From: Cloacibacterium normanense
GTDB lineage: Bacteria > Bacteroidota > Bacteroidia > Flavobacteriales > Weeksellaceae
Length of the DNA stretch: 64,000 bases
Assembly: GCF_002943105.1 (NCBI RefSeq)
Contig: NZ_PTPZ01000003.1
Location: 372,001 to 436,000 of the forward strand
Reading direction: 5' to 3'
In this document: positions 52,514-62,076 of the stretch, piece after piece
Numbering within the stretch: the first letter of the stretch is position 1
How the letters are laid out: each line of letters opens with the position of its first letter
The notes under the pieces: model-generated
The model's input: the letters and a program-made list of their open reading frames with translations, nothing else
Database searches by the model: none
Told to the model about the DNA's origin: nothing
Translations under genes and position numbers: made by a program

Positions 52514-53494
52514 TTGAATCTTAGAAAATTAGCCGATAAACAAAACATCTTTTTATTGTTATTGCTCGTGATGGTAATAGCAGGAAAACTCATTCCTTAC
52601 CAAGAATCTTACCATCAAATATTTAACCTAGAACAATTCATCGATTGGGGAATTGCGGGAATTTTCCTTTTGTACGGGCTAAAACTCAACTTGAAAGAAG
52701 TCCTGAAAGATGTCTCCAATTGGAAGTTGCACCTGTTGGTTCAAGCGGGAACTTTCATTCTTTTTCCTGCATTGGTATTGGTTTTTTATCCAATTTTTAA
52801 AGATTCGCCGTACTTGCAAAGTTGGCTTTCCGTATATTTTTTAGCGTGTTTGCCTTCTACGGTTTCTTCATCGGTAGTGATGGTTTCTATAGCCAAAGGA
52901 AATGTGACTTCAGCTATTTTTAATGCATCTATTTCTGGGCTTATTGGCATTATAATGACGCCTTTGTTGATGGGGTTTTTCTTAAATGCTCAAGCTGCCG
53001 AAAACCATCAAGCAGAGATTATCCAACAATTATTACTCAAAGTTCTTTTGCCGATTATCTTGGGAATTCTGCTCAATCCGATTTTCAAAAATTGGGTAAC
53101 GAAATACAGTAAAATCATTGCAGAATTTGACCGTCTCATTATTTTACTCATCGTTTACGAAAGCTTTTCTAAAGCATTTATCGAGAATATTTTTTCTACC
53201 GTTCCTTCTCTGGTTTTTGTAGTGATTACACTTGCTGCAGTAGCGCTTTTTTTTATCGTATATGAGATTTTAAAACGTATTTCACTTCGATTGGGTTTCA
53301 GCAGGGAAGATGTGATTACCACGACTTTTTGTGGCTCCAAAAAATCTTTGGTTCATGGCAGTTTATTCGTGATGATACTAGGGATTCCCGAAGAACAAAA
53401 AGTTCTTTTCCTATTACCCATCATGATTTACCACAGTTTCCAATTGTTCTATGTAAGCGCCCTCGCAAACAAAATCGCAAAAAGCAAAATTTAA
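52514..53494 (+). CDS. Bile acid:sodium symporter-family transporter (YfeH-like)
   Basis: 326 residues, about ten TM helices. This is the SBF-like/DUF4137 branch of the BASS superfamily, sodium-coupled organic anion uptake; the substrate is unknown and unlikely to be bile acids in a free-living cell. Family marks: the short helix-breaking CLPSTVSSSVVMVSIAKGN in the centre and the mirror motif TTTFCGSKKSLVHGSLFVMIL near the C-terminus, which are the crossover helices. The start codon is TTG (52514); the first ATG would remove the first TM. The gene is preceded by its own promoter. Confidence 0.88.
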   Translation: MNLRKLADKQNIFLLLLLVMVIAGKLIPYQESYHQIFNLEQFIDWGIAGIFLLYGLKLNLKEVLKDVSNWKLHLLVQAGTFILFPALVLVFYPIFKDSPYLQSWLSVYFLACLPSTVSSSVVMVSIAKGNVTSAIFNASISGLIGIIMTPLLMGFFLNAQAAENHQAEIIQQLLLKVLLPIILGILLNPIFKNWVTKYSKIIAEFDRLIILLIVYESFSKAFIENIFSTVPSLVFVVITLAAVALFFIVYEILKRISLRLGFSREDVITTTFCGSKKSLVHGSLFVMILGIPEEQKVLFLLPIMIYHSFQLFYVSALANKIAKSKI

Positions 53495-53499
53495 AACCA

Positions 53500-53553
53500 C
53501 CATAACCATTATAACCCTCATAACCATTATAACCACCATAACCTCTATAACTT
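53500..53553 (+). repeat. Nonamer tandem array (6 units)
   Basis: Six contiguous 9-bp units fitting NNATAACCN: CCATAACCA, TTATAACCC, TCATAACCA, TTATAACCA, CCATAACCT, CTATAACTT. It begins six bp after the transporter stop codon. Confidence 0.88.
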
Positions 53554-53790
53554 TATAACATTCCTTAAATTCCCTCATTTTCAAATTTTCAAATTCTCTT
53601 ATTAACTTTTCTTAAAAAGCTTCTTTCAATGTTAAATCCTCAATCTCCCAAAGATGAGAACTTTAGATATTTTCACTCTTTTACTTTTAATATTTTGGCA
53701 AAATAACATTCATTTTTGATTAAAATTTAGTTGACGAATAATTTAAAGAATGTTAAAAGCTTGTTAAAATACTTAACGGTCGCATTAGAA
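53554..53790. other. Gene-free SusC upstream region
   Basis: About 240 bp of A/T-rich sequence, with no ORF and no clear hairpin. It carries two GTTAAAA words (53754-53768) ahead of the SusC promoter and probably holds regulatory sites that I cannot name. Confidence 0.4.
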
Positions 53791-53798
53791 TACTTTTG
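53791..53798 (+). promoter_or_regulatory. SusC-SusD promoter -7 element (TACTTTTG)
   Basis: Exact TAnnTTTG match 19 bp before the ATG at 53817. Its final TTG is an in-frame false start (53796). Confidence 0.6.
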
Positions 53799-53816
53799 AG
53801 CTTAAAAAAAAGTAAA

Positions 53817-56795
53817 ATGCAAAAACGAACACAGCAGATTATTTTATTAGCTGCTCTAGGTCTGGTAAGTGTAACCCATTTACAGGCGCAATCTAAGAAA
53901 GCAAAATTAGATTCCGTAAGAAACATAGACGAGGTAGTAGTAACTGCTTTGGGAATCAAAAGACAAGACAAATCCCTAGGCTATGTTGCAGAAAAAGTGT
54001 CTTCAGAAGAGTTTGAAAAAACACAGAACAACAACTGGGCACAAGCGTTAGAAGGTAAAGTGGCTGGGCTTAAAATCCAAACAGCAGGTGCAGGTCCTCT
54101 AGGAAGCTCTAAAATCACCTTGAGAGGAAGTATTTCCATGAATTTGGATAACAACGAAGCACTCATCGTAGTAGACGGAGTTCCATTGGGCGGAACCAAT
54201 ACAGGAACAGGAAACGCAGCGTATGGAGCGGGTTCTGGAGGAGATTTGCCTGTAGATTACGGGAACAACTTTAACAGTATTAATCCAGATGACATCGAGA
54301 ATGTAACGATTCTAAAAGGAGCTACCGCTTCTGCATTATATGGTTCTCGAGGGGCAAATGGAGCCATCATGATTACCACAAAATCAGGGAAAAATAAGAA
54401 TGGAAAAATAAGAGTAACCCTTAATTCTTCTACAAGTTTTGATACGGTTTTGAAATGGCCAGATTGGCAATATGAATACGGTCAAGGAACATTAGCGAAA
54501 AATTCAGCAGGTCAGTTTTACTATTCTTATGGCGCTTCAGCTGATGGAGTGAGTACAGGAGGAACCAGTAGTGCATTCGGACCTAAATTTGATGGGCAAT
54601 ATTATTTTCAATATGACCCAACCGTAGAAGGACAAAGTTTAGAAAGACAATTGTGGAGACCTTATAAAGACAATGTTAAAGGTTTTTGGCAAATGGGAAC
54701 TACCTATTCTAACAGCATCAGTATCGAAAGTTCTAATGATAAAACTTCTTTCCGTACTTCATTGAGCGCCGTAAACAATACATGGATGATGCCGAATACG
54801 GGTTTTGACAGATTCAATTATGCTTTGTCTTTTGACCACAAGGTTACTAAAAAATTGAGGGTGGTTTCTAAATTTGCCTACAATTATACCAAGAGTGATA
54901 ATTTACCTTCTACAGGCTATAACAACCAATCGATTTCTTATTTCATGATTTTCCAAAATCCAAACGTTGATTTGGCTTGGTATGAACCGATTTGGAAGAA
55001 AGATAAATATCAGGTAGACCAAATTCACCCTTTCAGTACATTTATAGATAACCCTTATCTTATCGCTTATGAAATGCTGAATGGAGTACACAAAAAATTA
55101 ATCACAGGAAATATTACCGCTACTTATAATTTCAATAATAACTTTGAAATGATGCTAAGGTCTGGTATTGAAATTACAGATGAAGAAAGAACAACCAAGA
55201 GACCTTACAGTTCTGCCAATTACCTACAGGGATACTATCGCGAACAATACATTAAAAATTCTGAGTATAATACTGACTTACTTTTTACGTATAAAAATAA
55301 TTTTGGGAAATGGGGCGTTTCTGCTTCAGCAGGGGGAAACATCAGAGCAAATGAATATGTGTTAAATGATTATAGAGCCATCGGGCTTAGAGTTCCTGGG
55401 ATTTATCAGTTAACCAATGCGATTTCTCTAAATACAAGAATTGCTCAACCGAATGATAAAGAAACCAACAGTGTTTACGGTTTAGCGTCATTCAATTATG
55501 ACAATATTTGGTTTGTAGATTTCACCGCAAGAAACGACTGGAGCAGTACTTTACCAAAAGCCAATCGTTCTTATTTCTATCCTTCGGTTGCTACCTCTTT
55601 AATTCTTTCGGATGTTTTGAAAATGAAGTCGAAAAGCTGGAATTATTGGAAGTTGAGAGCTTCGTGGTCTCAAGTAGGGAACGATACCCAACCGTACAAA
55701 TTACAACAGTTCTATAATACCAGCGATTTTGTAGGTTCGGCAGAAAATATTGCCAATTTCCAGAATCCTAATCTGAAACCTGAAATGAACCAGAACATAG
55801 AAGCAGGGATGGATTTCAGCTTCTTCAAAAATAGATTAACGTATAACGTAACCGTTTATCAAAACAGTACCAAAGACCAAATTGTAAACGTACCGTCTCT
55901 TATTGAAACAGGATATTCTACACGTACCATCAATGCTGGTGAAGTAAGAAACAGAGGAATAGAAATGACCCTAAATGCATTCCCAGTGAAAAATAAAAAT
56001 TTCCAATGGAATGTTACCGCAAACTGGTCTATGAATAAAAATAGAATCATGTCTTTACCGGCAGAATTCCAAGGGGAACCATATACCATGGGAAGTGTAG
56101 GGGGAGTAGTATTCTTTAATGCAGTAGTTGGAGGTTCTCTAGGAGATATGTACGGATATAAATTACAGTACGCTCCAGATGGTCAAGTGATTTTTGGTAG
56201 CGATGGTCTTACTGCCAAATCTACAGAAATAGAATACGTAGGAAATGCCTATGCAAAATGGAGAGGAGGTTTACAAAACGCTTTTAAATACAAAAACTTT
56301 TCTTTAAGTTTCTCTTTTGACGGGCAATACGGAGGTAGAGTTTACTCACAGTCTCACCATAAAATGTCTGAGCAGGGAAAACTTACCCATACTTTGGTAG
56401 GTAGAGATAATCCAAACGGAACGATTGTAGGAGTTGGAGTAATACAAAACGCTGATGGCTCTTATTCGCCAAATACCAAAGCAGTTACTCTAACTTCTTA
56501 CTATGCAGATTATTACAGAAGAGCCAATGTGGAAACCAACTCATTTGATGCATCTTATGTTAAACTAAGAGAAGCCAATATCACATTCTATTTCCCTAAA
56601 CAAATTGTACAGTCGCTGAACATGTCAGACTTAAGTTTATCCTTATTTGGTAGAAACTTATGGATGTGGACGAAATTCCCATTATTTGATCCAGAAGCGG
56701 CTACATTGAACGATTCATCAATTACTCCGGGAGTAGAAATAGGGCAACTTCCTACTGCCCGTACTGTAGGAATTCAACTAAATGCTAAATTCTAA
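53817..56795 (+). CDS. SusC/RagA-type TonB-dependent outer-membrane transporter
   Basis: 992 residues from the ATG at 53817. Signal peptide (QQIILLAALGLVSVTHLQA), then almost at once the TonB box region NIDEVVVTALGIKRQ and the plug (VAGLKIQ, ITLRGSISM, ALIVVDGVPLGGTN, GATASALYGSRGANGAIMITTK), then a 22-strand-type barrel ending VGIQLNAKF. The usual SusC N-terminal carboxypeptidase-like domain between signal peptide and plug is missing, so this is the short form. It is followed after 9 nt by a SusD lipoprotein, with phosphodiester-cleaving enzymes downstream; uptake of a phosphorylated ligand is likely. Confidence 0.95.
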   Translation: MQKRTQQIILLAALGLVSVTHLQAQSKKAKLDSVRNIDEVVVTALGIKRQDKSLGYVAEKVSSEEFEKTQNNNWAQALEGKVAGLKIQTAGAGPLGSSKITLRGSISMNLDNNEALIVVDGVPLGGTNTGTGNAAYGAGSGGDLPVDYGNNFNSINPDDIENVTILKGATASALYGSRGANGAIMITTKSGKNKNGKIRVTLNSSTSFDTVLKWPDWQYEYGQGTLAKNSAGQFYYSYGASADGVSTGGTSSAFGPKFDGQYYFQYDPTVEGQSLERQLWRPYKDNVKGFWQMGTTYSNSISIESSNDKTSFRTSLSAVNNTWMMPNTGFDRFNYALSFDHKVTKKLRVVSKFAYNYTKSDNLPSTGYNNQSISYFMIFQNPNVDLAWYEPIWKKDKYQVDQIHPFSTFIDNPYLIAYEMLNGVHKKLITGNITATYNFNNNFEMMLRSGIEITDEERTTKRPYSSANYLQGYYREQYIKNSEYNTDLLFTYKNNFGKWGVSASAGGNIRANEYVLNDYRAIGLRVPGIYQLTNAISLNTRIAQPNDKETNSVYGLASFNYDNIWFVDFTARNDWSSTLPKANRSYFYPSVATSLILSDVLKMKSKSWNYWKLRASWSQVGNDTQPYKLQQFYNTSDFVGSAENIANFQNPNLKPEMNQNIEAGMDFSFFKNRLTYNVTVYQNSTKDQIVNVPSLIETGYSTRTINAGEVRNRGIEMTLNAFPVKNKNFQWNVTANWSMNKNRIMSLPAEFQGEPYTMGSVGGVVFFNAVVGGSLGDMYGYKLQYAPDGQVIFGSDGLTAKSTEIEYVGNAYAKWRGGLQNAFKYKNFSLSFSFDGQYGGRVYSQSHHKMSEQGKLTHTLVGRDNPNGTIVGVGVIQNADGSYSPNTKAVTLTSYYADYYRRANVETNSFDASYVKLREANITFYFPKQIVQSLNMSDLSLSLFGRNLWMWTKFPLFDPEAATLNDSSITPGVEIGQLPTARTVGIQLNAKF

Positions 56796-56804
56796 TCGAC
56801 AACT

Positions 56805-58256
56805 ATGAAAAATATATGGATAAAAGCAGTTGTGTTCTGCGTAATTTCTCTAGCCGCTACTTCTTGCAGCAGGTCTTTTGAGGAAATCAATACCGATACC
56901 AGCAAGATTATAGAACCTACACCTGCCAGTTTGTTGGCGCCGATTCAATACAATATGGCTGCTAATGCCTATTTGAGAGCCAATGATTTCACTTTTGATA
57001 TCATGCAGATTGCAATAGATTTCCCAGGAGAAGGAAACAATATTTCAAGATATTATGTAACCGAATCTACAGGAAGCTCTTATTGGAATACTTCTTATAA
57101 ATGGCTGATGCAAGTAAAACAAATGCAAGATTTGGCGGTTCAGCAAAACAATAAAAACTATCAAGCCATTTCGATGGTAATGAACGCTTGGTTATATTCT
57201 AACCTTACCGATACTTTTGGAGATATTCCGTTCTCTGAAGGTTCTAGAGTGGAAGATGGCATCACCCAACCGAAATTCGATAAGCAAAAAGACATTTACG
57301 TTAAATTATTAGATGATTTAAAAACTGCCAATGGTCTTTTTGTAACCAATACTACTTTAGCTGGACAAGATTTATTCTACAATGCGAATAATGATGTCAA
57401 TGGAATCATGTATTGGAAAAAATTCTGTAACACGTTATCTCTAAGATTATTAACCAGAATTTTAAAGAAAAATGGGGAAATAGATGTCTATGCTAGAATC
57501 CAAGAAATAGTAAACAATCCTACCGTTTACCCCATCTTTCAGAGCAATGCTGAAAGTGCCTTGATGAACGTTACAGGCGTAGCGCCTATGCTTCCGCCAT
57601 TAGCAAGACCTCAAGATTTTACTTCTTATAGAGCGGTAGGGGAGTTTTTTGTGAATACGCTGAATGACAACAAAGACCCGAGAATGGCGCAGTTTTTCAC
57701 GCAAGCCAAAAACTTAAGCAATAACCAAAATATAGGGTACAAAGGTGCTCCAGTTGCTTACATGAATGGAACTACGTTCACTTATCAGCCTTCAAACTTT
57801 AACCAGAATTTAGCTAAAGCTCCGCTTAAAGTCTTGATTTTACCTTATGCAGAGTTGCAGTTCATTCTTTCGGAATTAGCATTCAAAGGAATTATCACAG
57901 GAAATGCTCAAACGTATTATGAAAACGGAGTAAAAGCAGCCATTGAACAATGGGGAGCTGTAGTTCCAGCCAATTATTTTGCAAATCCTAAAGTGGCTTA
58001 TGATGGTACTTTAGAAAGAATTATGTTGCAAAAATATGTAGCGCTATTCTTTGTAGACCAGCAACAGTGGTTTGAGCATAAGAGAACAGGTTACCCAATA
58101 TTACCCAACAATGGAGGATTATTAAATGACGGTAAAATGCCACAGAGATTATTATATCCTACGCAACCAAAAATTTTGAACAGTGCCAATTATAACGCAG
58201 CAGTTCAATCTTTAGGAGGAGATAATATCAACGTTAAAGATTGGTGGAATCAATAA
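56805..58256 (+). CDS. SusD/RagB-family surface lipoprotein
   Basis: 483 residues. The lipoprotein signal ends in LAATSC (lipidated Cys21), followed by the SusD-like_2 body: TPASLLAPIQYNMAANAYL, TDTFGDIPFSEG, GIMYWKKFCNTLSLRLLTRI, YAELQFILSELAFKG, and WFEHKRTGYP near the C-terminus. It binds substrate as the lid of the SusC barrel. It is 9 nt from SusC and certainly co-transcribed. A separate promoter precedes the next gene. Confidence 0.94.
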   Translation: MKNIWIKAVVFCVISLAATSCSRSFEEINTDTSKIIEPTPASLLAPIQYNMAANAYLRANDFTFDIMQIAIDFPGEGNNISRYYVTESTGSSYWNTSYKWLMQVKQMQDLAVQQNNKNYQAISMVMNAWLYSNLTDTFGDIPFSEGSRVEDGITQPKFDKQKDIYVKLLDDLKTANGLFVTNTTLAGQDLFYNANNDVNGIMYWKKFCNTLSLRLLTRILKKNGEIDVYARIQEIVNNPTVYPIFQSNAESALMNVTGVAPMLPPLARPQDFTSYRAVGEFFVNTLNDNKDPRMAQFFTQAKNLSNNQNIGYKGAPVAYMNGTTFTYQPSNFNQNLAKAPLKVLILPYAELQFILSELAFKGIITGNAQTYYENGVKAAIEQWGAVVPANYFANPKVAYDGTLERIMLQKYVALFFVDQQQWFEHKRTGYPILPNNGGLLNDGKMPQRLLYPTQPKILNSANYNAAVQSLGGDNINVKDWWNQ

Positions 58257-58294
58257 AAAAATAAAAAAAGAATACATTTTTTACAAGCGATGAT

Positions 58295-58302
58295 TAGCTT
58301 TG
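58295..58302 (+). promoter_or_regulatory. GDPD gene promoter -7 element (TAGCTTTG)
   Basis: Exact TAnnTTTG match 25 bp before the ATG at 58328. The hydrolase genes may therefore be expressed independently of SusCD. Confidence 0.5.
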
Positions 58303-58327
58303 TAAAAGATTTGTAACGATATTCAAT

Positions 58328-59089
58328 ATGAAAAAATTAATTCTTTTGGCCACTTTAGTAGGCGCTAATTTTTACCACGCACAGACTCAAGTGATTGCGC
58401 ACAGAGGTTTCTGGAAAACCAATCCTACAACTGCTGAAAATTCTATTGCAGCGCTTAAAAATGCTCAACAATTGAAAGTGTACGGCAGTGAGTTCGATGT
58501 GAGAATGACCAAAGATGGCGTTCTGGTTATCAATCATGATGAACACATCAATGGGGTGGAAATTGCAGCTATGGATTTTAAAAGTTTGAAGAAACAGAAA
58601 CTCTCAAACGGCGAAAATCTATCTACTTTAGAGAAGTATTTGAAGCAAGGCAAAAAATCTGAGGTAAAGCTTATCCTTGAGATTAAACCCGCCAAAACTC
58701 CAGAATTGGAAACCGAAATGGTGGAAAAAACGCTGGCAATGGTAGAAAAATTTCACTTGCAAAATCAGACGGAGTACATCTCGTTTAGTCTGCATATTGC
58801 CAAAGAATTAAAAAAGCAAAATCCTAAAGCTTTGGTGCAATATCTCGCAGGTGATCTTTCGCCACAAGAGATTAAAAATTTAGGAATTGATGGCGTAGAT
58901 TATCATTATAATGTATTCTTAGAAAAACACCAAGATTGGATAGAACAAGCCAAAAATTTGGGTGTTATCACGAATGTGTGGACGGTAAATGACCCAGAAA
59001 TCTATAAAAAATTGTATGATGCTGGTGTACAATTCGTAACCACCAATACACCAGATGTATTTTTAAATATCAATAAATCCAGAGAATAG
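58328..59089 (+). CDS. Glycerophosphodiester phosphodiesterase, secreted
   Basis: 253 residues. Signal peptide (KKLILLATLVGANFYHA), then a GDPD TIM barrel: IAHRGFWKTNPTTAENS (His25, Arg26, Glu-rich metal site), GSEFDVRMTKDGVLVINHDEHING with the second catalytic His, LILEIKPAK, and TNVWTVNDPEIYKKLYDAGVQFVTTNTPD at the end. It hydrolyses glycerophosphodiesters to glycerol-3-phosphate and an alcohol in the periplasm. It is placed after SusCD and before a metallophosphoesterase. Confidence 0.94.
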   Translation: MKKLILLATLVGANFYHAQTQVIAHRGFWKTNPTTAENSIAALKNAQQLKVYGSEFDVRMTKDGVLVINHDEHINGVEIAAMDFKSLKKQKLSNGENLSTLEKYLKQGKKSEVKLILEIKPAKTPELETEMVEKTLAMVEKFHLQNQTEYISFSLHIAKELKKQNPKALVQYLAGDLSPQEIKNLGIDGVDYHYNVFLEKHQDWIEQAKNLGVITNVWTVNDPEIYKKLYDAGVQFVTTNTPDVFLNINKSRE

Positions 59090-59134
59090 CTTCATAACCA
59101 TTGAATATACTCTCATAAAATTACAAATCAACAA

Positions 59135-60721
59135 ATGAAACAATCATTTTTAATGCTTTTCTTGTGCGCTGCATTTTCTTTTGCACAGCAACAAGCAACA
59201 GGATATGTCTTCGAAGACGCCAACAAAAACGGAATCAAAGACCGTAAAGAAAAAGGAATTGCCAACGTTTCTGTTTCCAATGGAGTAGAAGTGGTAAAAA
59301 CAGACGAAACAGGAAAATATATTTTGCCTGTAGAAAATGACAATATTATTTTCGTTATCAAACCAGCCAATTATGCTACGCCGAAAAGCAATACGCAATT
59401 GCCCCAATTCTATTATATTCATAAGCCTGAAGGTTCGCCAAAAGACATGAAATATGCTGGCGTAAAACCAACGGGAAAATTACCAAAAGAAATCAACTTT
59501 CCACTCTATGCACAAAAGGAAAACACACAGTTCAAAGTATTGGTGTTTGGTGATCCTCAACCGTATGATGAAAAAGAAATTGATTATTTCAGGAGAGGAA
59601 TTATCAATGAAGTCAAAAACAATAAGAAAGACGCTGTTTTTGGCATCAGTTTAGGAGATTTGGTTGGAGATGATTTGAGTTTACATCCGCTATACATTGA
59701 TGCGGTTAAAGAAGTCGGTTTGCCTTGGTACAATGTGATGGGGAACCACGATATGAACTACGAAGCGAAAGAGGATAAACTGTCAGACGAAACTTTCGAA
59801 GCAAATTTCGGACCGAACAATTACGCTTTCAATTACGGAAATGTACATTTCATTGTTTTGGATGATATTTTGTATCCAGACCCAAGAGATGGAAAAAGTT
59901 ACTGGGGTGGTTTCAGAAAAGACCAGTTGGATTTTGTAGAAAACGACTTAAAAAATGTAAATCCTAATCAGTTGGTCGTGTTTTCATTCCATATTCAGTT
60001 GACGCCAGAAAATGACGGAGATAAACACTTTAGAATGGAAGACAGAAAAAGATTGTTTGAGATTTTAAAGCCTTTCCAAAATGTATTGATGATGTCTGCA
60101 CATACACACAAGCAAACCCAATTGTTCTACGGAAAAAAAGAAGGTTGGGAAGGCATCAAACCGATTCATGAGTTCAATGCAGGAACCACTTCTGGAGATT
60201 GGTATTCTGGAACGGTAGATGAATTAGGCGTACCAAAATCGGTGATGAGAGACGGAACAGAAAGAGGATATTCTTTTGTGGGTTTCAATGACAATCAGTA
60301 CGAAATCACGTATAAAGTAGCAGGAAAACCAGAAGATTATCAAATCAATCTTTGGGTACCGAAAGTGATTCCTTTCAAAACTAAAAATGCAGCAAGGATT
60401 GTAGCCAATTTCTTTATGGGAAGCAAACATGATAAGGTGGAATACAGAATAGATAATGGTGAATGGAAAGAAATGGATTATACCGAATCGATAGACCCAG
60501 ATTACACCAATGATGTATTGAAATGGGATACTACACAAGAACTGTTCACAGGAAGAAGACCTAGCAATCCAGAAGCTTCTAAACACATTTGGACGGCTCC
60601 TTTTTCTAGAAAATTAGAATTGGGAACCCACGAAGTAGAAGTAAGAGCCAAAGACCGTTACGGAAAAACGTACACCACAAAATCTACTTTTGAAGTGAAA
60701 AGCTCAACATTGATTCCATAA
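59135..60721 (+). CDS. Secreted calcineurin-like metallophosphoesterase
   Basis: 528 residues with a signal peptide (KQSFLMLFLCAAFSFA). An N-terminal Ig-like/SdrD_B-type module (about residues 22-95) carries the calcium-loop-like DANKNGIKDRKEKG. The calcineurin-type catalytic domain has metal ligands in FGDPQP, LGDLVGDD, MGNHDMNY, FSFHIQ and SAHTHKQ. A C-terminal beta-sandwich (about 400-525; VEYRIDNGEWKEMD, LGTHEVEVRAKDRYG) resembles MPE C-terminal domains. It likely releases phosphate from an organic phosphate made available by the GDPD 45 bp upstream. It is the last gene of the locus. Confidence 0.92.
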   Translation: MKQSFLMLFLCAAFSFAQQQATGYVFEDANKNGIKDRKEKGIANVSVSNGVEVVKTDETGKYILPVENDNIIFVIKPANYATPKSNTQLPQFYYIHKPEGSPKDMKYAGVKPTGKLPKEINFPLYAQKENTQFKVLVFGDPQPYDEKEIDYFRRGIINEVKNNKKDAVFGISLGDLVGDDLSLHPLYIDAVKEVGLPWYNVMGNHDMNYEAKEDKLSDETFEANFGPNNYAFNYGNVHFIVLDDILYPDPRDGKSYWGGFRKDQLDFVENDLKNVNPNQLVVFSFHIQLTPENDGDKHFRMEDRKRLFEILKPFQNVLMMSAHTHKQTQLFYGKKEGWEGIKPIHEFNAGTTSGDWYSGTVDELGVPKSVMRDGTERGYSFVGFNDNQYEITYKVAGKPEDYQINLWVPKVIPFKTKNAARIVANFFMGSKHDKVEYRIDNGEWKEMDYTESIDPDYTNDVLKWDTTQELFTGRRPSNPEASKHIWTAPFSRKLELGTHEVEVRAKDRYGKTYTTKSTFEVKSSTLIP

Positions 60722-60744
60722 ATGCTAAAAAACATTGTAAAAAG

Positions 60745-60774
60745 AAAAGCCAACGATAAGTTGGCTTTTTTTAT
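60745..60774 (+). terminator. Terminator of the phosphodiester locus
   Basis: A 10-bp stem AAAAGCCAAC/GTTGGCTTTT with a GATAA loop and T-run. Confidence 0.88.
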
Positions 60775-60829
60775 GTGTTTAAATGAGAGATGTGGAATTT
60801 TTATTGCTGTTGTTCGTTCGGCATTATTA

Positions 60830-61171
60830 TTAAATAATTTTACCAATAAATTCAATAATTTTTGGAATGTTATCATAAAGCCCTTTCGCTACCATCGATG
60901 AAGTTACATTACCAACCCATTTTAATACTTTGCTTTTTAATGAATTTTTATCACCACTATTTTCCTGAATAATTTCATTTAATTCATTTATTTCTGCATC
61001 TTCAATACAATAACTTTTTAACTCTTCTTTGTTTTCTTTTGAAAGTTGTTTGTCGGATATAACTAATTTTGAAATTTCTGAATCTGTCATTTCAGTGTCA
61101 AATATTCCAACGTTTCCGCTTTCGGGATTTGAAGATGAAATTTTAGTTTCAGTTATTGAGGAGTTATTCAT
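60830..61171 (-). CDS. Small protein of unknown function, start uncertain
   Basis: 113 residues from the ATG at 61171. The N-terminal half is Ser/Asn/Thr/Glu-rich with a repeated I-x-x-x-x-I-S spacing (SSITETKISSSNPESGNVGIFDTEMTDSEISK, quoted in two parts), reminiscent of a short beta-solenoid. The C-terminal half is helical, ending in the hydrophobic LYDNIPKIIEFIGKII. The same frame is open back to about 61241 with a plausible coding flavour (DNNDRKTVGISGLK) but no ATG, GTG or TTG, so the gene may be 5'-truncated, frameshifted or use an unusual start. I do not recognise the family. Confidence 0.5.
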   Translation of the reverse strand: MNNSSITETKISSSNPESGNVGIFDTEMTDSEISKLVISDKQLSKENKEELKSYCIEDAEINELNEIIQENSGDKNSLKSKVLKWVGNVTSSMVAKGLYDNIPKIIEFIGKII

Positions 61172-61374: not shown

Positions 61375-62076
61375 TTAAGAACGATTTCTAATAGTAGCTA
61401 CATTTTTGTTCATAATATTTCTTACAAACTTTTGAAAAATAAATTTTTTGAAAAAACTCATTTGTTGTTGATGTTTTGCATAAAAATCGTCGGGAGTATC
61501 AAAAATTCCAAGGTCCTGATTAATGCCTTTGTCTTGAATGTAAGTATGGTTAAGATTCCACTCTATAGGTGGGTTTTTTAAATCATCTGTATAAGCTCCA
61601 TAACCGCAAAATGAAGTTGTACAATCTTGATTTTTTTGTTGGAGCTGGCTTAAATAAGCCTTGTCTAGAATAACACCTTCCATAGAGTACCATTTCTCCT
61701 CAACAAAGACTTCTACCCAACTATGCAAAATATTTTTGGGAGAAAGTAAATACCAGACACCAGTGATAGCACCTTTTTGTAGAGCTTTGTCTATGGTGAA
61801 CCCATGAATGCGATTAGGAATACCCACTGCCCGCAAAAGCGCCATAAGTAAAGTAGCCTTGGTGTTGCATTGTCCATATCCATCTTGTAATACTTGCGTG
61901 GCAGAGATGTCATCAGATATATTGTAACCAAACTGTATGTCATCTCTTACAAAGTTATAAATTGTTTTTACCCTTTCTACAGGAGGTAAAGCCAACCAAT
62001 TTTTACTTTTGATGAATGATTGAATTGAAGGTGAGGAATAATTTAGAATAGAAGTTTCTTTTAAATAAGCTTTCAT
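61375..62076 (-). CDS. Transglutaminase-like superfamily protein
   Basis: 233 residues, no signal peptide. It is a transglutaminase-fold cysteine protease/amidase domain: Cys70 in GYGQCNTKATLL, His118 in NILHSWVEV and Asp138 in GVILDKAY form the expected triad order. VERVKTIYNFVRDDIQFGYN before the Cys is typical of the superfamily. The substrate is unknown; bacterial members range from peptidases to amide synthases. It lies just downstream of an AraC regulator on the same strand, which may control it. Confidence 0.85.
   Translation of the reverse strand: MKAYLKETSILNYSSPSIQSFIKSKNWLALPPVERVKTIYNFVRDDIQFGYNISDDISATQVLQDGYGQCNTKATLLMALLRAVGIPNRIHGFTIDKALQKGAITGVWYLLSPKNILHSWVEVFVEEKWYSMEGVILDKAYLSQLQQKNQDCTTSFCGYGAYTDDLKNPPIEWNLNHTYIQDKGINQDLGIFDTPDDFYAKHQQQMSFFKKFIFQKFVRNIMNKNVATIRNRS

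Follow-up and report, generated by a model that had tools for sequence, protein, structure and literature searches.

A SusCD operon of the Pus type in Cloacibacterium normanense, predicted to act on glycerophosphodiesters and probably under PhoB

Introduction

What does a SusC-SusD (SusCD) pair carry when its operon encodes phosphoesterases and no glycoside hydrolase? SusCD pairs import substrates by TonB, and most of those in Bacteroidota are assigned to glycans by default. Here we analyze such an operon from Cloacibacterium normanense, a relative of Chryseobacterium with a 2.84-Mb genome, in a 64,000-nucleotide stretch of contig NZ_PTPZ01000003.1 (positions 372,001 to 436,000; hereafter the window, with coordinates counted from its first letter). 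The operon consists of a repeat array, a promoter, the genes susC, susD, gdpd and mpe, and a terminator. It probably scavenges phosphodiesters, among which glycerophosphodiesters, the deacylated head groups of phospholipids, are the likeliest. The locus bears on the question why SusCD pairs are so numerous in Bacteroidota, and it offers a testable substrate class, the glycerophosphodiesters.

Results

A SusCD pair and two phosphoesterases in one predicted operon

Four co-directional genes occupy the + strand, as judged from open reading frames (ORFs) and Pfam/NCBIfam models. The first two encode a SusC/RagA TonB-dependent outer-membrane transporter (53817-56795; TIGR04056) and a SusD-like lipoprotein of the SusD-like_2 family (56805-58256; PF12771). 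They are followed by genes for a probably exported glycerophosphodiester phosphodiesterase (GDPD; 58328-59089; PF03009, PDB 3no3) and a probably exported metallophosphoesterase (MPE; 59135-60721) that combines MetallophosN and MetallophosC domains with a GpdQ/Rv0805-like catalytic fold. The intergenic gaps are 9, 71 and 45 bp, and a terminator scan found no + strand terminator between the four genes. A Pfam scan of ten proteins, those of the operon and its surroundings, recognised no glycoside hydrolase. The first-pass annotation had described a SusC-SusD pair with two secreted phospho-hydrolases and no glycoside hydrolase; the ORFs and domain models agree with this description, in which secretion was read by eye. 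An intrinsic-terminator-like hairpin (60742-60772, + strand; 13 pairs, 4 of them G-C, with a T tract) lies at the operon end, and terminator-like sites in the region are no commoner than in shuffles (5 versus 5.8).

SusC scores 527.6 bits against TIGR04056 (cut-off 368.25), and its closest solved chain is BT_2264 (383 bits; PDB 5fq6). Its translation probably starts at the ATG at 53817; a TTG at 53796, in the same frame, overlaps the -7 box upstream of the gene. SusD matches PF12771 with 374.8 bits, and its lipobox cysteine, C21, is invariant in all 17 aligned homologues. Its best solved match is 3ejn (118.8 bits), with only 49 bits for the SusD of the BT_2263/BT_2264 pair. By eye, without a signal-peptide program, SusC, GDPD and MPE begin with signal-peptide-like leaders.

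The SusCD-MPE association is conserved through rearrangement

An MPE query matched 61 of 148 genomes of the family Weeksellaceae, two of them weakly. A SusD of the same type adjoins MPE or is one gene off in all 30 short loci, the window's own included. Homologous SusC and SusD lie beside MPE in 39 of the 40 loci retrieved with long flanks, which cover 40 of the 61 MPE places (loci are cited by our own L numbers). GDPD is present in 23 of these 40: in 13 its gene separates susD from mpe, in 8 it lies on the upstream side of susC, and in 2 it diverges from mpe. In nine loci (L055, L057, L059-L065) mpe precedes susC and susD. Because the genes stay together despite rearrangement, they are very probably functionally linked. 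The SusCD-MPE association is far beyond chance. Among the best 80 of 532 matches in named genomes, SusC-SusD-MPE occurs in all 80 and GDPD in 77, counts that are not independent because most of these loci come from Chryseobacterium species.

The one exception in the long-flank set is L058, in which MPE accompanies a different SusC/SusD_RagB pair, a phosphodiester glycosidase (NAGPA, PF09992) and a purple-acid-phosphatase-like protein. This partner set (L058:4047-12566) sits behind genes for an extracytoplasmic function (ECF) sigma factor and FecR, and it suggests phosphodiester-linked glycans as the substrate there. ECF sigma factor and FecR genes precede susC in six of the 40 loci (L051-L054, L056, L058), an assignment made by clustering, with Pfam run on L051 only.

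Related SusCD pairs are joined to glycerol-phosphate genes

Across 296 genomes of the phylum, the SusD profile found 69 places in 46 genomes. We examined 27 of the best 28 (G292 was left out). A phosphate-ester or phosphonate enzyme lies in the predicted operon at 17 of the 27, a count from partly scanned neighbours that has no baseline from other SusD clades. The enzymes are MPE, GDPD, PF01663 proteins, purple acid phosphatase, PhoD, PF04185 proteins and a PhnX-like protein below its cut-off; one of the 17 places, L256, has an Exo_endo_phos protein only.

Outside the family, the highest SusD score (686 bits) is that of L208, whose operon reads GlpD(part)-GlpK-GlpF-GDPD-SusC-SusD-MPE-GDPD-GlpT-GDSL esterase. 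Three proteins of this locus pass their cut-offs: the MIP channel, GlpK (827 bits) and GlpT (744 bits). The partial GlpD and the two GDPDs have NCBIfam matches that stay under the equivalog cut-offs. The enzymes of L208 and of the window are only distantly related (MPE 29%, GDPD 24% identity); the two enzymes therefore occur in differing versions alongside related SusCD pairs. Locus L249 has the order GlpD-SusC-SusD-DUF5689-GDPD-GlpK-GlpF, with GlpD below cut-off, and L181 the order ECF-FecR-SusC-SusD-MPE-GDPD, with a distant GDPD. We built a SusD tree from 40 rows of our choosing. In one supported clade (100/98) every row but L246 is MPE-linked (21 of 22); L209 and L253 form a second MPE-linked pair that stands apart. 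The MPE-link label changes 3 times on this tree, compared with a shuffled mean of 13.2; near-copies add to the clustering.

Several of these relatives have features of their own. A DUF5689 gene follows susD in several of L209, L249, L251 and L252, and L250 and L253 have a similar-sized gene in this position; the DUF5689 protein is possibly an extra surface binding protein. Loci L254 (10440-15854) and L259 (10620-16194) pair a distant SusCD with PhnX-like hydrolases (below cut-off) and a TIGR03364 flavin adenine dinucleotide (FAD) oxidoreductase (above cut-off), and L254 also encodes PhoD; judged from these genes, both are possible phosphonate-scavenging SusCD operons. The distant SusCD relatives L261 and L263 lie behind ABC-transporter-like genes, L261 next to a gene for a nucleoside-hydrolase protein (PF01156) and L263 next to one for an APH-like protein. 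Finally, L189 and L190, found with the MPE profile, combine MPE with a SusD_RagB-type SusCD pair and a GDPD-like protein (profile match only), and L190 also has an alkaline phosphatase.

Catalytic motifs and fold of the two enzymes

GDPD matches PF03009 with 94.2 bits, and its closest solved chain is 3no3 (E 3e-65). Its H25-R26-G27, E55/D57 and H70-D71 residues are invariant in 12 of 12 rows; these HRG, ExD and HD motifs we take to be catalytic. The window GDPD also matches a GDPD-like domain held by PDB entries 7ww4 and 7wwc, which are named beta-1,3(4)-glucanase; our literature search on this domain found no paper.

In MPE, PF16371, PF00149 and PF16370 (MetallophosN, Metallophos and MetallophosC) all score above cut-off, and the AlphaFold model has a mean pLDDT (predicted local distance difference test score) of 91.8. 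A PDB sequence search with the catalytic domain returned no chain at E 0.001; a stretch of SdrD alone matched the N-terminal part of the protein. The best fold match is GpdQ (PDB 2zo9 and 3d03; Z 22.6, 2.5 Å over 224 residues), followed by Rv0805 (Z 21.6-21.9), Lmo2642 (20.6), a fish dimetal phosphatase (19.9), SMPDL3A (19.7) and purple acid phosphatases (19.6). We treated rows within 1 Z as tied and a common fold alone as no proof of function. GpdQ leads in the VIA structural comparison, and Rv0805 is the top match in Foldseek. Residues D175, N204, H286, H323 and H325 are invariant among 18 aligned rows and presumably belong to metal-site motifs. By its fold and motifs, MPE may prefer either diesters or monoesters.

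A six-unit array precedes susC

Six tandem 11-bp units of the form TTNA-N7 lie upstream of susC at 53709-53774 (+ strand): TTCATTTTTGA TTAAAATTTAG TTGACGAATAA TTTAAAGAATG TTAAAAGCTTG TTAAAATACTT. Beginning 16 bp past the array end is a -7 promoter box, TACTTTTG (53791-53798, + strand), of the Bacteroidota consensus type TAnnTTTG, with no TTG 17-23 bp upstream of it. By eye, TA[AC]TTTTG is found 15-16 bp past the array in six-unit loci. Such a combination, 11-bp repeats in tandem beside a promoter that lacks a good -33 element, is the signature of a PhoB/OmpR-type activator. Both the period and the position at the susC promoter fit PhoB-type direct repeats; the Pho-box sequence of Weeksellaceae is not known to us. 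The first-pass annotation had suggested a search for Pho-box-like sites in 53554-53790, and this candidate PhoB/OmpR-type site was found there.

The array is the sole chain of at least 4 units on either strand of the window. In dinucleotide shuffles of 53554-53816, none of 2000 reached 5 units and 8 reached 4. The TTNA motif and the period of 11 were picked after the upstream sequences had been viewed, and a motif-free lag test and a scan of 1.72 Mb were added to offset this post hoc choice. In the lag test, which compared 13 upstream regions from 11 genera (three regions from one genus) with 112 controls, identity at lag 11 was above controls (z 4.2), as was that at lag 22 (z 2.8). The scan, covering 94 related loci, found 36 chains of at least 4 units. 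All 13 six-unit chains lie upstream of a homologous susC and span five genera: the window's own, g9, g20, g24 and g26. The remainder comprised one five-unit chain (L036, with no called gene behind it) and 22 four-unit chains, many of which are the complement of the same arrays.

Before susC in the window and 39 further loci, close relatives included, chains of six units were found in 14 upstream regions, three or four in 17, and one or two in 9. The mean chain before susC is 3.7 at a spacing of 11 and 1.2-1.9 at spacings of 8-10 and 12-14; for the controls, 112 other upstream regions taken from these loci, the respective values are 1.5 and 1.3-1.4. No array precedes susC in the ECF/FecR loci L051-L054 and L056, and no chain of at least 4 units was found anywhere in these loci or in L181 and L182.

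A hairpin, and no supported promoter, between susD and gdpd

A separate promoter for the hydrolase genes had also been proposed, at 58295-58302. The octamer at this position, TAGCTTTG, has the letters of a -7 box. This pattern is common (53 TAnnTTTG on the + strand of the window, 8 of them within 53400-61000), no TTG occurs 17-23 bp upstream, and the octamer falls in the loop and 3' arm of a hairpin at 58272-58314 (+ strand; -11.7 kcal/mol, z -2.91, with 3 of 200 shuffles as stable). In 11 loci from other genera in which gdpd comes after susD, the gdpd frame starts at most 6 bp from the susD stop or overlaps it. The same-genus loci L031 and L032 keep TAGCTTTG, which is uninformative because the whole gap is nearly identical. 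Given these features and the lack of a terminator between susD and gdpd, a separate promoter is not supported. A single transcript across the operon, perhaps tuned by the hairpin, would be the simpler view.

Phosphate genes and regulators in the genome

Neither PhoU nor GlpK was found in the genome of the window, and no GlpT-type protein scored over the cut-off there (best 51.6 bits, compared with 503.7 for the L208 GlpT with the same model). A PHO4/Pit carrier is present, as are two PF01663 proteins over cut-off. In this search, which did not extend to Ugp-type transporters, GlpK and GlpT were not found; the cell therefore probably cannot use glycerol-3-phosphate whole, and probably gains phosphate from the locus.

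Only two OmpR-type (PF00486) regulators are encoded in this genome. One (L264:7179-7856) matches PhoB models best, and the kinase beside it matches PnpS and PhoR models best, in all cases below the cut-offs. The second regulator is RprY-like, also below cut-off. Three units lie upstream of the phoB-like gene of this genome. Among the best 30 of 88 matches to this gene, 7 of them from the window's genus, three or four units occur upstream in the same place in 27 loci (the exceptions being L292, L301 and L302). No chain of at least 3 units was found in 15 kb around the rprY-like gene.

In the same genome, L264:3140-8903 (contig 11) contains the PhoB/PhoR-like pair, a divergent TonB-dependent receptor (plug domain) and a 407-residue putative lipoprotein without a Pfam family. 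This layout is the same as that of the phoBR/PUSIV region of Flavobacterium johnsoniae, a likeness of layout only, as the proteins were not compared. In that species, according to Table 1 of the F. johnsoniae study (PMC8115612), low phosphate induces both the receptor (Fjoh_0545) and the lipoprotein (Fjoh_0546).

Just past the operon end lies a 113-residue ORF without a Pfam match (60830-61171, - strand), adjoined by a transglutaminase-core protein (61375-62076). Neither had a tblastn match in the 40 long-flank family loci.

Discussion

A route for phosphodiester uptake

The phosphodiester-uptake reading was put forward in the first-pass annotation, and it is strengthened by the linkage conserved in changed gene orders, the related SusCD pair in an operon of glp genes that includes GlpT, the GpdQ-like fold of MPE, the failure to find GlpK and GlpT in the genome, and the 11-bp PhoB/OmpR-type array. 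We propose the following route. Under phosphate shortage, a PhoB-type response regulator would bind the six 11-bp units and recruit RNA polymerase to the TACTTTTG promoter. At the cell surface SusD would capture the substrate, for import by SusC via TonB. GDPD, presumably in the periplasm, would cut the substrate to an alcohol and glycerol-3-phosphate, and MPE may cleave other phosphodiesters, the resulting monoester, or both. PF01663 phosphatases encoded elsewhere may finish the release of inorganic phosphate (Pi), which the PHO4/Pit-type carrier could take in. The gain here would probably be phosphate; relatives that add GlpT, GlpK, GlpF and GlpD would gain carbon too. Related operons without and with glp genes thus offer a comparison of phosphorus-only with carbon-plus-phosphorus use.

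Several observations weigh against this proposal. GpdQ outscores Rv0805, SMPDL3A and purple acid phosphatases by only a small margin, and MPE reads D140-P141-Q142 at its first metal motif in 18 of 18 rows, not DxH, which we assume to be the first motif of GpdQ. A MetallophosC-type protein of Bacteroides thetaiotaomicron (BT0446-49) is listed among glycoside hydrolases in PMC10434189. The MPE profile matches 42 of the 296 phylum genomes at E 1e-60, in 45 places. The SusC profile marks SusC in 11 of the 34 far MPE loci (34 of those 45 places), L189 and L190 among them; because SusC was marked in only these 11, MPE is not tied to SusCD everywhere. No phosphorus enzyme was recognised in the predicted operon at 10 of the 27 SusD places. 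The second-best SusD outside the family, that of L246, has no recognised phosphoesterase beside it (neighbours partly scanned), and the SusC score of L246 (1483 bits) exceeds those of L208 (1438), L181 (1441) and L182 (1445). MPE is also patchy, occurring in three of the seven genomes of the window's genus, and the locus is therefore accessory.

The proposed switch meets difficulties as well. The regulator scores 208.7 bits against the PhoB model TIGR02154, below the cut-off of 296.2. Nine of the 40 loci (L036, L040, L049, L070, L051-L054, L056) have one- or two-unit chains only before susC. Chains of at least 3 units occur in 10 of the 112 control upstream regions, and two more three-unit chains lie elsewhere in L264; because such chains are not rare in either, three units alone are weak evidence. 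Promoters of PhoX genes in the order Flavobacteriales, taken as an independent test of the array, carry at least 3 units in 6 of 26 cases, one with 5, compared with the 10 of 112 in controls. These were 26 of 27 loci, the other being a second piece of a frame already included, with 300 bp upstream of each; as some PhoX-like proteins in the set are distant or have an unsure start codon, the mixed outcome speaks neither for the array nor against it.

Other substrates and other signals

Could the SusCD pair import larger phosphodiester-linked polymers, such as polyglycerol-phosphate teichoic acid, phosphorylated capsule or N-acetylglucosamine-1-phosphate glycans, with the enzymes trimming them in the periplasm? 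SusCD pairs usually take oligomers, the L058 MPE keeps company with a different SusCD pair, NAGPA (PF09992) and a purple-acid-phosphatase-like protein, and GDPD could act on glycerol-phosphate ends. We nevertheless consider this unlikely: no glycoside hydrolase or surface endo-enzyme was recognised in the operon, and the glp-linked relatives and GDSL esterase neighbours (L208, L209) fit small lipid-derived glycerophosphodiesters better. Uptake of nucleotides, oligonucleotides or cyclic nucleotides, with MPE as an Rv0805-like cyclic-nucleotide or nucleic-acid phosphodiesterase, would accord with the position of Rv0805 within about one Z of GpdQ and with L261, where a distantly related SusD adjoins ABC-like genes and a nucleoside-hydrolase protein (PF01156). 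Yet L261 and L263 fall in another, distant clade of the SusD tree, and it is GDPD and glp genes that recur with the clade of the window's SusCD, so that we judge this explanation the least probable of all.

The operon might instead be a general nutrient system with incidental phosphoesterases, its array belonging to RprY or another signal. The second OmpR-type regulator is indeed RprY-like, the link of the array to PhoB is an indirect one, and L246 is a SusCD pair without recognised phosphoesterases. Two observations stand against this: GDPD, MPE and glp genes recur although their order changes, and 27 of 30 loci have like repeats before the phoB-like gene, with no chain of at least 3 units in the 15 kb around the rprY-like gene. 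We regard such a system as very improbable, and scavenging of glycerophosphodiesters under phosphate control as the preferred account.

If that account is correct, a wider scheme may be considered. We suggest tentatively, as an idea somewhat nearer to doubt than to belief, that a glycerophosphodiester-dedicated SusCD clade exists in several Bacteroidota families and is wired to phosphate in two interchangeable ways: by trans-envelope ECF/FecR signaling, or by cytoplasmic PhoB via the six-unit array, which would be the Weeksellaceae Pho box. The SusC proteins bear on this scheme. Those of the six-unit lineage (two members checked) are without the N-terminal extension seen in ECF/FecR relatives: CarboxypepD_reg and STN domains were not found in the SusC of the window or of L043, whereas L051 SusC has a CarboxypepD_reg domain and L181 SusC has CarboxypepD_reg and STN. 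The SusC of L057 (four units) is longer, with domain matches below cut-off. Loss of the extension and gain of the array need not coincide, because a lineage with three or four units keeps a longer SusC.

Comparison with known systems

The BT_2263/BT_2264 pair of B. thetaiotaomicron (PDB 5fq6), whose SusC is the closest solved one to that of the window, has to our knowledge no link to phosphoesterases. Compared with GpdQ of Enterobacter aerogenes, MPE has a like fold, 12% identity, extra N- and C-terminal domains and DPQ in place of DxH. In the GlpQ/GlpT system of Escherichia coli, glycerol-3-phosphate is made outside the inner membrane. GDPD would do likewise here, and L208 adds GlpT, GlpK, GlpF and part of GlpD. 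Unlike the E. coli system, the operon would use SusCD for the outer-membrane step, and GlpT and GlpK were not found in its genome.

The closest parallel is found in the Pus (phosphate utilization) systems. Lidbury et al. (2020; PMC8115612) describe PusCD complexes of F. johnsoniae that occur with phosphodiesterases and are induced by Pi depletion, and plant-associated Bacteroidetes that have no PstSABC and possess low-Pi-inducible PusCD complexes. As presented there, PUSI and PUSII resemble the window operon in linking SusCD to phosphoesterases without a carbohydrate-active enzyme, and PUSI has two phosphodiesterases; L181 and L182, relatives of the window locus in another family of the same taxonomic order, share with PUSI the presence of an ECF sigma gene. 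By gene content, the window operon co-localizes SusCD with phosphoesterases and, by the Pfam scan of ten proteins, has no carbohydrate-active enzyme in the cluster, as in Pus systems; the glycoside hydrolases or lyases that accompany SusCD in a polysaccharide utilization locus were not recognised in it. Induction by phosphate depletion, the defining trait of Pus systems, is predicted for it indirectly, by the 11-bp array and the PhoB-like regulator. The differences lie in three parts. PusD1 and PusD2 are PF07980/PF14322 proteins (Table 1, PMC8115612) and the window SusD is PF12771; the Pus systems as listed have PF16670 enzymes or PhoA, and the window has GDPD and MetallophosN/C enzymes; and ECF or FecR genes described for Pus systems contrast with the PhoB/OmpR-type 11-bp array. 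In the same Table 1, the descriptions or Pfam numbers of Fjoh_4172 and Fjoh_4173 seem exchanged (phospholipase C with pf00149, CpdA with pf16670). The comparison covers PUSI and PUSII, and one of PusCD3-6 of F. johnsoniae may be of the window type.

Judged by title and abstract, no paper was recognised as describing a SusD-like_2/GDPD/MetallophosC operon, and in the open-licence literature we found none on an 11-bp Pho array in Weeksellaceae. Pho boxes are predicted at plcP clusters of marine heterotrophs in PMC4796936. What is new here beyond the gene set is the six-unit array, a candidate Pho box. By analogy, the window operon would work like PUSI, with a different SusD family, different enzymes and a different switch; on its gene content and promoter, the best name for it is a Pus-type SusCD operon for glycerophosphodiesters, probably under PhoB.

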